From: Actinomycetota bacterium
GTDB lineage: Bacteria > Actinomycetota > Acidimicrobiia > Actinomarinales > Actinomarinaceae
NCBI GenBank assembly: GCA_014239265.1
Contig: JAAZZH010000005.1
Location: 1 to 64,000, forward strand
Direction of reading: 5' to 3'
DNA: 64,000 nucleotides
Shown: positions 20,036 through 40,938 of the stretch, one piece after another
Layout: each line of letters opens with the position of its first letter
How positions within the stretch are numbered: position 1 is the first letter of the stretch
The notes under the pieces: model-generated
Databases searched by the model: none
Seen by the model: only the letters and a program-made list of their open reading frames with translations
What the model was told of the DNA's origin: nothing
Translations under genes and position numbers: made by a program

Positions 20036-20371
20036 ATGGGACAGGATAACCTAAAAAATTTTACTTCACTAGATATTCGAGTTGGCGAGATTCTTGATGT
20101 TCTAGACTTTCCTGAAGCAAAAAATCCTTCCTATATTATCAAAATAAGTTTTGGAAAAGAAATTGGAATTAAAAAAACTAGTGCTCAGGTGACAAATTAC
20201 ACTAAAGAGTCACTCCTTGGTAGAAAATGTATCGCAATAATTAATCTTGGTGACAGACAAATTGGTCCAATAATGAGTCAATGCTTGGTGTTGGGTTCAA
20301 TTTCTAAAGATCGTACGGTTGAACTATTGTCACCAGAAAAAAATGCATCTGTTGGGGACAAAATAGCTTAA
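20036..20371 (+). CDS. CsaA-like tRNA-binding domain protein
   Basis: FTSLDIRVGEILDVLDFPEAKNPSYIIKISFG...TSAQVTNYT...QIGPIMSQCLVLG. Confidence 0.85.
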   Translation: MGQDNLKNFTSLDIRVGEILDVLDFPEAKNPSYIIKISFGKEIGIKKTSAQVTNYTKESLLGRKCIAIINLGDRQIGPIMSQCLVLGSISKDRTVELLSPEKNASVGDKIA

Positions 20372-20845
20372 TTAAGTTGTAAGGGATGTGAATTTTTCTG
20401 GTTTGAAATTACCGACTCTTTTATAAATTTTTTCAGCATTGTTATCAACAAGAACATAAGTTGGTGTAAATTCTAAACCATACTTCTCAACTATTTCGTT
20501 ATAGTCTTTTTTTGAAGCATTAACAGAGACTATTGGGATTTCTGGTTTGTTTTTTTTGAATTCATTAACTATGAATTTCGAAGCAGTACATCCAAGTCAA
20601 TAATCAGAATAATACTCAATAATTGTAAATGGACTTGCTGCAAAGTCATGATCATCTATAACTGTCCCTCTATTTGAAGTAAATAAATAGAGACCAAAAA
20701 ATGAACCCAGTACTACAAAGCTTAAAAAATATAAGATAGCAATAGGCTTATAAGCAATGAAAATAACTGCTAGGCCGACAACCCATCCAAATGGTAAATA
20801 AATTAAGCTATATCTGTTTATTATCCTAATAATTGAATTTTTCAT
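20372..20845 (-). CDS. Candidate selenoprotein: membrane-anchored thioredoxin-like protein with UxxC (in-frame TGA at 20597-20599)
   Basis: Manual translation: MKNSIIRIINRYSLIYLPFGWVVGLAVIFIAYKPIAILYFLSFVVLGSFFGLYLFTSNRGTVIDDHDFAASPFTIIEYYSDY[U]LGCTASKFIVNEFKKNKPEIPIVSVNASKKDYNEIVEKYGLEFTPTYVLVDNNAEKIYKRVGNFKPEKFTSLTT*. Trx fold hallmarks (xYSDYUxxC, cis-Pro TPTYVLVD) lie on both sides of the TGA. The track ORF ends at 20597, but the reading frame stays open and homologous to 20372, abutting the neighbouring gene. Confidence 0.72.
20558..20579 (-). promoter_or_regulatory. bSECIS-like hairpin downstream of in-frame UGA
   Basis: mRNA GAA(A)UUCAU-AGUUA-AUGAAUUC: 8 bp with one bulged A, 5-nt loop with G at loop position 2 (GU); stem begins 17 nt after the UGA, loop 26 nt after. 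Confidence 0.6.
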
Positions 20846-20884
20846 AAATTTTATTTTGTTGTTTAAGTAAATTATACTTTGAAC

Positions 20885-21295
20885 ATGGAATTGATAAGTC
20901 ATATTAAGAAAAAGGGTCATAGAGTAACGCAATCAAGAGAACTTATCTGTAAAATTCTTGAAGATTCTGGACATGCACACTTCACTGTTGACGAAATATA
21001 TAAGAAGGTAACTAAAAAAAATACAAATATAGACCTTGCTACTGTTTACAGAACTTTAGAACTTTTGGGAGAAATAGGCTTAATAGCACACCTTCATCAA
21101 GCGCATGGTTCAGGAATTTATTTTTTAAAAAATGATGAAAATACTATGCACATAATATGTGTAAATTGTAATAAAATTTTAGATGTTAGCTCTAAGACCT
21201 ACAATAAAATTAATAGCCTGTTGACCAAAGAGACACAGTTTACAAAAATTCATAATAATTTTATTTATTCTGGAACTTGTGGAAACTGTAAATAA
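20885..21295 (+). CDS. Fur-family metalloregulator (Fur/Zur/Nur-type)
   Basis: KKKGHRVTQSRELICKILE...DLATVYRTLELLGEIGLI...MHIICVNCNK...GTCGNCK. ATG at 20885 preferred over TTG at 20879. Confidence 0.92.
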   Translation: MELISHIKKKGHRVTQSRELICKILEDSGHAHFTVDEIYKKVTKKNTNIDLATVYRTLELLGEIGLIAHLHQAHGSGIYFLKNDENTMHIICVNCNKILDVSSKTYNKINSLLTKETQFTKIHNNFIYSGTCGNCK

Positions 21296-21305
21296 TTATT
21301 CTATT

Positions 21306-21320
21306 TGCAAACTGTTTGCA
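21306..21320. promoter_or_regulatory. Perfect 7-1-7 palindrome TGCAAAC-T-GTTTGCA (Nur-box-like operator) upstream of the ECF transporter genes
   Basis: Direct reading; also fits tTGCAA-N5-TTGCAt; immediately 5' of the -10-like TAATAT at 21322-21327. Confidence 0.6.
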
Positions 21321-21333
21321 TTAATATGAACCT

Positions 21334-22095
21334 ATGCAAACAACACATTCTCACCATTTATCTCTTCATGGTAAGTCACAACTTCATGGCATAAGCCCTC
21401 AACTTAAAATTCTTTCTGTGTTGTTGATTGTCATTTCAATTGCTTTTTCAAAAATTATTAATCCCATTCAAATTCTATCCCATGCTCTCATAGTTTTTCT
21501 TATTATCAGATATTCAAAAATTCCGATCAAGACTTATCTCAAGAGACTAACTATTGATATTCCCTTCATCTTATTTGCCCTATTTTTGCCCTTTTTAAGC
21601 AGTGGTAATAATGATGTAGTAACAACAATCTTTACCCTCGATATCTATAAAACTGGCCTATTGGAGATGTTTGCAATACTCTTTAAGGCCACAGCTGGTC
21701 TTTCAATGGGAATTGTCCTTACTGCCACAACTACTAATATTGAAATAATTTATGGACTTCAGAAGCTTAAATTGCCCTCAATAATAATTGCAATAATGTC
21801 CTTTTCTATCAGGTACATTGATGTTTTTATAGATGAATTTAAAAGAGTGAAAGTTTCAATGCAATCTCGAGGCTATATAGAGAAGGGTATTAAGACTTTA
21901 CTCCCCATAGCCTATGCTTCAGGAGCTATGCTAATTAGAGGCTACGAACGTGGTGAAAGAGTTTATCTTTCAATGATTTCAAGAGGTTTTACTGGTGTGA
22001 TTGAATTACAAGATAGAGAATATACTAAATCAAATTATCTAATCTTTCTTACAACAATATCAGTCTTCGTTTTGGTCTTGGATATTAGCTTATGA
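21334..22095 (+). CDS. Energy-coupling factor transporter transmembrane protein (EcfT/CbiQ-like)
   Basis: His-rich N-terminus MQTTHSHHLSLHGKSQLHG; SMQSRGYIEKG and ERVYLSMISRGFTG (Ala-Arg-Gly-like coupling motifs). Confidence 0.88.
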   Translation: MQTTHSHHLSLHGKSQLHGISPQLKILSVLLIVISIAFSKIINPIQILSHALIVFLIIRYSKIPIKTYLKRLTIDIPFILFALFLPFLSSGNNDVVTTIFTLDIYKTGLLEMFAILFKATAGLSMGIVLTATTTNIEIIYGLQKLKLPSIIIAIMSFSIRYIDVFIDEFKRVKVSMQSRGYIEKGIKTLLPIAYASGAMLIRGYERGERVYLSMISRGFTGVIELQDREYTKSNYLIFLTTISVFVLVLDISL

Positions 22096-22838
22096 GTAAG
22101 TATTTAGAAATCACTAATTTAACCTACGAATATCCAGATGGCTATAAAGCTCTTAACGAAATTAGCTTTAACCTTGAAGAGGGTGATTCTCTCGGAATAC
22201 TTGGACCAAATGGTGCAGGAAAAACTACATTAATACTCCATTTAAATGGCATCCTTGGTGAAATGGACGGTTCTATTAAATTAAATAATTTAGAGTTTGT
22301 TGAAGATAATTTAGCTGAAATTAGAAAAACAGTTGGCGTTGTTTTTCAAGATCCAGACGATCAGTTGTTCATGCCTACTGTCTTAGAAGATGTTATGTTT
22401 GGGCCAAAGAATTTTGGGTTTTCAGAAGAGGCCAGTAGAGAAAATGCCGAAGAAGCATTGAAAATGGTTGGAATGAATGATTATCAGGAGAAAGCTCCAC
22501 ATCACCTAAGCTTTGGGCAAAAAAGAAAAGTCGCTATTGCTAGTGTCCTTGCATCTAAGCCACAGCTTTTGGTGCTTGATGAACCCAGCTCTAATCTTGA
22601 CCCCTCTTCGCGAAGAGAATTAATTGATATATTACTGTCATTAGAAATCTCTATAGTTCTTGTTACTCACGATTTGCCGATGGCCTTAGAAATTTGTCCA
22701 AAAAGTATTGTTGTTAATAGTGGATTAATAACAGAAAATGGAAAAACAAAAGATTTGCTTACTAACAATAAGGTAATGAAGGAAAATCGATTAGAGCTCC
22801 CCTACGGTTTTGCATTACATCATTTAGATGAAGAGTAA
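22092..22838 (+). CDS. Energy-coupling factor ABC transporter ATP-binding protein (EcfA/CbiO-like)
   Basis: LGPNGAGKTTL, VGVVFQDPDDQLFMPTVLEDVMFGPKN, LSFGQKRKVAIASVLA, LLVLDEPSSNLDP. Confidence 0.93.
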   Translation: MSKYLEITNLTYEYPDGYKALNEISFNLEEGDSLGILGPNGAGKTTLILHLNGILGEMDGSIKLNNLEFVEDNLAEIRKTVGVVFQDPDDQLFMPTVLEDVMFGPKNFGFSEEASRENAEEALKMVGMNDYQEKAPHHLSFGQKRKVAIASVLASKPQLLVLDEPSSNLDPSSRRELIDILLSLEISIVLVTHDLPMALEICPKSIVVNSGLITENGKTKDLLTNNKVMKENRLELPYGFALHHLDEE

Positions 22839-38938: not shown

Positions 38939-40735
38939 TTATTCTACTGTTACTGATTTAGCTAAGTTACGAGGTTGATCAATAGACTCACCGTTCAAAT
39001 TTGCAACATGATATGCAATGAATTGAAGTGGGATAATTGACACTATTGTTGATAACATTTCACTTGCTTCTGGGAGGGTCACATAATCATTAGAAATATC
39101 TTGCAATTTCTTTGATGAGTTGTCTCCTATTGCGATCACATATGCTCCTCTTGCTTTGACCTCCTGAACATTACTTGTTGTCTTATCAAGAAGGTGATGT
39201 TGACTGGCGGTAACAATTACTGGTGTGCCATTCTCTATCAAAGCTAAGGTGCCATGTTTAAGTTCACCAGCCGCAAGAGCTTCTGCATGTAGATAGGAAA
39301 TTTCTTTTAATTTTAATGCGCCTTCTGCTGCTAATGCATAGTCCAATCCTCTACCAATGAAATAAATGTCTTTTTTCTCATTAATTGATTTTGATATTTC
39401 TTTAATTTGGGATTCACATTTCAAAGTTTCTTTGATCAATAATGGTAACTGTTTAATCTCATCAAAAGTAGTTTCAAGATTCTCAGATTCATCCCAGTGC
39501 TTAGCTAAAAGAAGTTGCCCAACAAGCATTCCAAGATAAGCTTTTGTTGAGGCTACACCGATTTCTGGCCCCACATGAAGATACAACACACTGTCAGCCA
39601 TCCTAGCAAGAGAGCTTCCAACAACGTTAACTAGAGCGAGAACGTGAGCATCGTTCTCTTTAAGGAGTTCCGTTGCTGCAATTGTGTCCATAGTTTCTCC
39701 AGATTGAGAAATAACAATGCCTAAATCATTTTCTCCGACTATAGGTTCCCGATATCGAAATTCTGATGCTAGCTCTACACTAACTGGAACTCCTAAGACT
39801 TTTTCAAACAAGTCCTTACCGAATAATCCAGCATGGTAAGCTGTACCGCACGCAACAATCCATATTTTTTCAAATTGTTTGGCCATGTTTAAATCGACAG
39901 GGATTTCCTCTGAGCCAATCTCTAAACGTCCAGTTATTGTCCTTTCAATTACTTCTGCTTGTTCAAGTATTTCTTTGTACATGAAATGATCATGGCCTGA
40001 TTTTTCTGCTTCAGAAACTTTCCAATCAATCTCTTGAATTTCTCTTGATATTTTATTCATGTTGATGTCAAATAATTGATAACTGCCATCTTTAATCTCA
40101 ACAAAATCTCCATTCTCTAGGAAGATCATCTTATTTGTGTGCTCTAGTATTGCTGCTGAGTCTGAAGCAAGAAATACTTCGCCCTCTCCCACCCCAAGAA
40201 CTAATGGGCTCATCATTCTTCCTGCGACTATGGTGTCAGGCTGCTTTGTTGTGGTAACTACAAGTGCATAAGTTCCAACAAGTTCTTTAGCTACCTTACA
40301 GACTGTTTCCAAAAGATTACCTGTCCATTGATTACTCAATTCAACTGCTACAACTTCTGTATCTGTTTCAGATTCAAATTGATAATTATCTCTTTGTAGT
40401 TCTTCTTTCATTTCGGCATAATTTTCGATTATACCATTATGTATTATTGCAAAATCTTTATTGCGATCATAATGGGGGTGAGCATTTTCATCACTTGGAA
40501 CACCATGTGTTGCCCATCGAGTATGACCAATTCCAATATTCCCATTAATTTCTTTATTAAGTAAATGATTTTTTAAAACTTGTAATTTACCTTCTTTTTT
40601 TTCTATAGTTAGATTTTGGCCATCTGTTATTGCAATACCGGCTGAATCGTAGCCACGATACTCTAGTCTAGATAGTCCATCCAATAAAATAGGTAAAGGT
40701 TGTTTAGGGCCTGAATACCCAATAATGCCACACAT
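38939..40735 (-). CDS. glmS: Glutamine-fructose-6-phosphate aminotransferase (isomerizing)
   Basis: MCGIIGYSG, LEYRGYDSAGIAI, GHTRWATHG, SIS domains (SQSGETMDT), DQPRNLAKSVTVE. Confidence 0.98.
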   Translation of the reverse strand: MCGIIGYSGPKQPLPILLDGLSRLEYRGYDSAGIAITDGQNLTIEKKEGKLQVLKNHLLNKEINGNIGIGHTRWATHGVPSDENAHPHYDRNKDFAIIHNGIIENYAEMKEELQRDNYQFESETDTEVVAVELSNQWTGNLLETVCKVAKELVGTYALVVTTTKQPDTIVAGRMMSPLVLGVGEGEVFLASDSAAILEHTNKMIFLENGDFVEIKDGSYQLFDINMNKISREIQEIDWKVSEAEKSGHDHFMYKEILEQAEVIERTITGRLEIGSEEIPVDLNMAKQFEKIWIVACGTAYHAGLFGKDLFEKVLGVPVSVELASEFRYREPIVGENDLGIVISQSGETMDTIAATELLKENDAHVLALVNVVGSSLARMADSVLYLHVGPEIGVASTKAYLGMLVGQLLLAKHWDESENLETTFDEIKQLPLLIKETLKCESQIKEISKSINEKKDIYFIGRGLDYALAAEGALKLKEISYLHAEALAAGELKHGTLALIENGTPVIVTASQHHLLDKTTSNVQEVKARGAYVIAIGDNSSKKLQDISNDYVTLPEASEMLSTIVSIIPLQFIAYHVANLNGESIDQPRNLAKSVTVE

Positions 40736-40744
40736 ATTATCTCC

Positions 40745-40905
40745 ATTCCAACGAGCAAGTTGAAATTAGACTACGTTAATTTGCTTCTGTTCAAAGATTT
40801 CTCTCTGTTTTTAAACAATTTATTACGACTGTAGAGCCGAGTATGCATCCGCCGAATTTTCGATAACACACTTCCTCGTCACCTTTTTCAAGGTCTGGCG
40901 CTATA
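40745..40905 (-). ncRNA. glmS ribozyme (GlcN6P-responsive self-cleaving riboswitch)
   Basis: Minus strand: ATATAGCGCCAGACCTTGAAAAAGGTGACGAGGAAGTGTGTTATCGAAAATTCGGCGGATGCATACTCGGCTCTACAGTCGTAATAAA...ACAGAGAGAAATCTTTGAACA; matches the conserved glmS ribozyme core (AGCGCC cleavage site, GACGAGG, TTATCGA, TTCGGCGGATGC, CGGCT) directly upstream of glmS. Confidence 0.93.
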
Positions 40906-40938
40906 TTTGCTCGTTAATATAATTATAACGAAGATATT

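Follow-up and report, generated by a model that had tools for sequence, protein, structure and literature searches.

The window analysed here, a 64,000-nucleotide stretch of DNA, carries at positions 20372–20845 a minus-strand reading frame that meets an in-frame TGA and, as the earlier note had observed, stays open beyond it (Table 1). The continuation comprises 74 sense codons before the TAA, rather than the 75 counted in that note, and the gene ends exactly beside csaA, as described there. The joined product reads MKNSIIRIINRYSL...FTIIEYYSDY-U-LGCTASKFIVNEF...LEFTPTYVLVD...SLTT with U at position 83; the TGA stands where the first Cys of a CxxC motif would be expected (SDY-[TGA]-LGC), and the cis-Pro segment described previously is present as TPTY. 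A spacing of 39 bp separates the start of this gene from that of the divergent Fur-family gene.

Table 1. Features of the locus and of the predicted product in window coordinates.
Feature	Position	Strand	Basis or remark
Complete gene, putative selenoprotein, 157 residues	20372–20845	minus	ATG 20843–20845, Sec codon UGA 20597–20599, TAA 20372–20374
In-frame TGA, putative Sec83, first position of UxxC	20597–20599	minus	TGA in genus homologues; TGC in Cys homologues
Predicted resolving Cys86 of UxxC	20588–20590	minus	Invariant in alignment A5
Membrane hairpin, TM1 (residues 13–31) and TM2 (residues 36–57)	20675–20809	minus	AlphaFold2 helices, hydropathy, N-x-[YFH]-S motif
Thioredoxin-fold domain, residues 72–155	20381–20632	minus	Pfam PF00085, AlphaFold2, Foldseek
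cis-Pro128 codon	20462–20464	minus	Within the thioredoxin-fold domain
SECIS-like hairpin, 7 bp stem AAUUCAU/AUGAAUU, loop AGUUA	20559–20577 (loop 20566–20570, GU 20568–20569)	minus	22–40 nt after the U of UGA
TATAAT promoter-like −10 box	20871–20876	minus	Sequence inspection; between the divergent starts; kept in most genus members
Fur-family regulator, divergent	20879–21295	plus	PF01475, 96 bits; neighbour in all assembled genus loci
CsaA-like tRNA-binding-domain gene, convergent, outside the mechanism	20036–20371	plus	PF01588; synteny

Near-identical loci are found in Candidatus Actinomarina single-cell genomes and metagenome assemblies; together with the WhiB gene beside the Sec operon described below, they assign the host genome to Candidatus Actinomarina. 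Candidatus Actinomarina is an uncultured lineage that is streamlined to about 1 Mb and is among the smallest free-living ocean actinobacteria; the host assembly measures 1.05 Mb. Over the length that each of them covers, all Actinomarina loci have an identical gene order, and in the window the stretch 20879–22838 holds the Fur-family regulator followed by CbiQ and the ABC ATPase of an ECF-type transporter, in an order fixed across the genus. No redox partner was found in this neighbourhood, the Actinomarina loci consisting of Fur, CbiQ, ABC and CsaA genes. A match on a contig filed as Saprospiraceae (L060) was rejected: its gene order is identical to that of Actinomarina, in line with its similarity, which marks it as a misbinned contig of that genus. 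Elsewhere in the window, a glmS ribozyme (RF00234, 89 bits) lies at 40767–40913 on the minus strand, upstream of the ORF at 38939–40735, in this marine actinobacterium.

A Pfam search with the window protein placed it in the thioredoxin fold superfamily, the PF00085 domain scoring 24.8 bits against a gathering score of 23.5, with both a CxxC-like motif and the cis-Pro present. In the AlphaFold2 model (mean pLDDT 88.5) a thioredoxin fold comes after a two-helix hairpin, the architecture that the earlier note had read from the letters; thioredoxins were matched by Foldseek with this model at an E value of about 1e-6 and also by a profile search with the protein. Charge bias would place the domain inside in the Actinomarina protein, with an N-terminal charge of about +4, and outside in most of the Chloroflexota members described below, where the loop is more basic, so that the topologies suggested by charge contradict each other.

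All four components of the Sec machinery that the proposal of Sec insertion calls for, SelA, SelB, SelD and tRNA-Sec, are present in the host genome. The selA and selB genes form an overlapping operon (L003) adjoined by a WhiB gene. The selA match, at 384.6 bits, clears its cut-off of 267.9; SelB, of 556 amino acids (L003, 1495–3165), reaches 194 bits, under the NCBIfam cut-off of 242, yet it overlaps selA and is the sole candidate with an additional match to the C-terminal region of SelB. With SelB under the curated cut-off, automatic annotation may miss Sec use in the Actinomarina lineage. A tRNA-Sec with the anticodon TCA was found by ARAGORN and scores 75 bits with the Rfam model; across the genus, tRNA-Sec exceeds the family cut-off in 41 of 42 genomes, 40 of them with at least 71 bits, and G002 gives only 48-bit matches to the model, a score at which serine tRNAs also lie. 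The selD gene is above the cut-off in 40 of the 42 genomes. Every full-length selD match, among the matches listed, contains one in-frame TGA, and the host selD itself carries one.

Downstream of the TGA, the genus shares a hairpin of the form AAUUCAU-AGUU[AG]-AUGAAUU, with a stem of 7–8 bp, a five-base loop and 26 nt from the UGA to the loop. The bacterial SECIS model asks for a loop of 3–9 nt, a stem of 4–16 bp, a G in the first two loop positions, a distance of 16–37 nt from the UGA and a minimum free energy of at most −7.5 kcal/mol (PMC13188914). The window hairpin passes the loop, stem, G-position and spacing rules, with G second in the loop and U next, and fails the energy rule at −3.5 kcal/mol against −7.5 kcal/mol; an alternative fold also competes with it when the region is folded alone. 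G23 and U24 in the loop of the E. coli SECIS are conserved, G23 being a SelB binding site (PMC8659212). The hairpin positions encode F-I-V. Wherever these residues are retained, their codons TTC, ATA and GTT are fixed in 100% of 30 genus sequences, while the codons of conserved Ile and Val residues at other places in the gene vary. Within the genus alone the covariation is slight, amounting to one two-sided pair. Among background codon positions, a fraction of 1.6e-4 has a hairpin with the AGUU[AG] loop and at least 7 bp at this distance, for a motif that was defined after its sighting.

Members of the family were also found in another phylum. Among 353 Acidimicrobiia genomes no match lay outside the genus, and a search of viral contigs found none. 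A Cys homologue of the same architecture, IEFYSDYCAGC with TGC, is present in L084 (Anaerolineales UBA6663), and the family occurs in many genomes related to it, most full-length copies having one in-frame TGA; the label Chloroflexota used for these members rests on the classification of L084, the other members coming from relatives of that genome. In a whole-length alignment of Actinomarina and Chloroflexota members (A5), N10, S13, S80, Y82, U/C83, C86, P128 and G145 are invariant, and the N-x-[YFH]-S motif in the membrane hairpin is common to both. No redox partner was found near the Chloroflexota members, whose neighbours, named by inspection only, are EF-G-like, methyltransferase and phosphomutase-like genes.

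Both codons are met at the Sec position in these relatives, the TGA at the UxxC position in 14 of 14 TGA members checked and TGC in six homologues (L248, L251, L252, L253, L260 and L264). The stem is kept in all 14 TGA members checked, nearly always with 6 bp and in each case with at least 5 bp, with a loop of GUG or GUC and in the same register as in Actinomarina (i+j=62 for paired positions, counting from the U of UGA), and it is lost in all six Cys members checked; by permutation, the chance of this split is 1/38760 = 2.6e-5. Five pairs are shared across both phyla, with 99.3% of cells paired, and four of the five have changed on both sides. The covariation score is 0.70 against 0.35 for shuffled alignments, with no shuffle reaching it; the shuffles ignore relatedness, and slid controls give at most 0.32. 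A SECIS-like element of the kind that Sec insertion would need is thus seen with covariation in the Sec members and is lost in the Cys members checked. A tRNA-Sec was detected in 13 of 15 tested TGA genomes, G407 showing it at only 53 bits; G402 and G501, TGA-bearing relatives of G395, show none, perhaps from genome incompleteness. Of nine genomes tested whose copy is free of TGA, three (G395, G396 and G397) lack a tRNA-Sec.

A scan for TGA-bridged genes compared about 60% of the host genome with parts of two other Actinomarina genomes, with frames lying over a longer ORF removed because antisense frames of real genes gave hundreds of false matches. About 30 candidates remained, of which three were judged by eye to be selenoproteins, the others being gene-end overlaps or noncoding frames. 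The three convincing conserved genes, a minimum at this coverage of the genome, are the gene at 20372–20845, SelD and a TlpA/ResA-like protein. The TlpA/ResA-like candidate (L094 near 5107, minus strand; G000:C11:180344-180802) has a lipobox-like start and the motif WADY-U-GIC; it is present in 35 of 42 genus genomes with one TGA each (G040 with an extra TAA), and the TGA lies at the active site in all copies read. The AGUU[AG] loop recurs in its hairpin, where it falls in another reading frame than in the gene at 20372–20845; two pairs of this hairpin have changed on both sides, and its covariation lies above all 500 shuffles. In the SelD gene the hairpin is short, has GU in its loop, is less uniform and was assigned by eye. 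The Sec apparatus of Actinomarina thus seems to be kept for few proteins, of which SelD, the TlpA-like lipoprotein and the product of 20372–20845 were found.

The TGA might instead be decoded by a near-cognate tRNA rather than by SelB, giving mixed products, with the hairpin as a readthrough enhancer and Sec entering only under a supply of selenium. Bacteria are in general known to read through UGA, and the thermodynamic weakness of the window hairpin would suit such a reading. We nevertheless consider it unlikely: the TGA falls exactly at the catalytic Cys, the genomes keep SelA, SelB, SelD and tRNA-Sec, the same kind of GU-loop hairpin recurs in the two other genes, and the Cys homologues checked have lost it.

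Selenocysteine decoding also agrees with the conservation of the codon and of what follows it. The gene was found in 33 of 42 genus genomes with exactly one in-frame TGA in all 33, and the TGA column is identical in all 30 aligned sequences; the Cys codon TGC stands at this place in homologues of the other phylum. CbiQ, the neighbouring gene, is likewise missing from eight of the nine genomes without the gene, and the ninth, G002, has a contig that starts 92 bases ahead of CbiQ, so that the absences are assembly gaps. The median omega in the genus alignment is 0.205 before the TGA and 0.217 after it, so there is no loss of purifying selection downstream. Standard gene-calling programs would close the ORF at the TGA, leaving an 82-residue two-helix membrane peptide with the remainder a decaying pseudogene or an assembly error. 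Such a true stop is very improbable and is refuted by conservation, since selection is equal on both sides, the TGA stands in 33 independent assemblies including single-cell genomes, and in another phylum the homologous thioredoxin domain has either Cys or TGA at this codon. A genome-wide code change, with TGA read as Trp or another residue as is known elsewhere in AT-rich, streamlined genomes like this one, deserves practically no credence and is refuted because TGA is an ordinary stop elsewhere, 13 of the window's 58 long non-overlapping ORFs ending with it, and because the scan of about 60% of the genome left only three convincing TGA-bridged genes, all with a UxxC or SelD motif.

Selenoproteins with a UxxC thioredoxin fold are the commonest kind. 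The earlier note saw no obvious named family for the two-helix and thioredoxin architecture, which holds in that no NCBIfam model reaches its cut-off with the tested Actinomarina or Chloroflexota members and that, in the table of a 2026 review covering 119 families, none is named with this architecture; its novelty was nonetheless overrated, both for the commonness just mentioned and because a described marine group may include the family. This group, ‘Trx-like 3’ of the Global Ocean Sampling study, comprises 212 UxxC sequences, is commoner in marine samples and weakly matches cd02950 (PMC2398784). By description, it resembles the present family in its UxxC motif, thioredoxin fold and marine abundance; the searched text of that study mentions neither a membrane architecture nor an organism for it, nor Actinobacteria. 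By domain and motif the family could be filed under ‘Thioredoxin, PF00085, UxxC’ of the 2026 review: the window protein shares with Sec-containing thioredoxin a domain above the gathering score, a putative Sec at the nucleophile position and the cis-Pro, but has a two-helix membrane hairpin and YU in place of the usual WC, and it scores 25.1 bits with the thioredoxin equivalog TIGR01068, whose cut-off is 96.8. The TlpA/ResA/DsbE-type selenoproteins (cd02966, UxxC) are likewise membrane-associated thiol-disulfide oxidoreductases with UxxC; however, the window protein gives no match to them above the cut-off, and a separate TlpA-like selenoprotein candidate is present in the same genome. GOS_C (NF045500), SaoT (NF040730) and the HUIPC thioredoxin-like protein (NF047660) are also thioredoxin-like with UxxC, and the window protein gave no match to any of these models, even with E allowed up to 1. 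Among the open-access papers searched, none joins Actinomarina with selenoproteins or selenocysteine.

In conclusion, the gene at 20372–20845 very probably encodes a genuine selenoprotein, a membrane-tethered thioredoxin domain with a SelB-decoded UGA83. At the level of sequence, the conserved TGA and its Cys homologues, the Sec machinery, purifying selection on both sides of the codon, the covarying SECIS-like hairpin and the Sec/Cys exchange tied to hairpin loss support the view put forward in the earlier note that Sec is inserted here, from which we infer both the insertion and the redox chemistry of the product. SelB with Sec-tRNA(Sec) would recode UGA83, guided by the hairpin 22–40 nt downstream with GU in its apical loop, and the N-terminal two-helix hairpin would tether the thioredoxin domain to the membrane. 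Sec83 would act as the attacking nucleophile and Cys86 as the resolving thiol, which makes membrane-located thiol-disulfide (or peroxide) reduction the most likely function. Selenoproteins of this sort are probably under-counted in AT-rich genomes, because the gene ends at the TGA under the standard code and the hairpin is too weak for the usual SECIS energy threshold. We lean towards an unnamed, old family of membrane-hairpin selenothioredoxins that spans Actinomarina and Chloroflexota and in which compensatory changes have maintained the SECIS hairpin at the same codons; a very streamlined free-living ocean lineage would then keep the whole Sec apparatus for some three proteins, of which two are UxxC oxidoreductases, so that selenium would be a genuine requirement of redox balance. 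The six hairpin-less Cys relatives beside TGA relatives that keep the hairpin offer a natural experiment on Sec/Cys exchange. The retention of selA, selB, selD and tRNA-Sec for few targets despite a genome of about 1 Mb makes selenium a testable growth requirement of this lineage and raises the question of what advantage a membrane-tethered Sec has over Cys.
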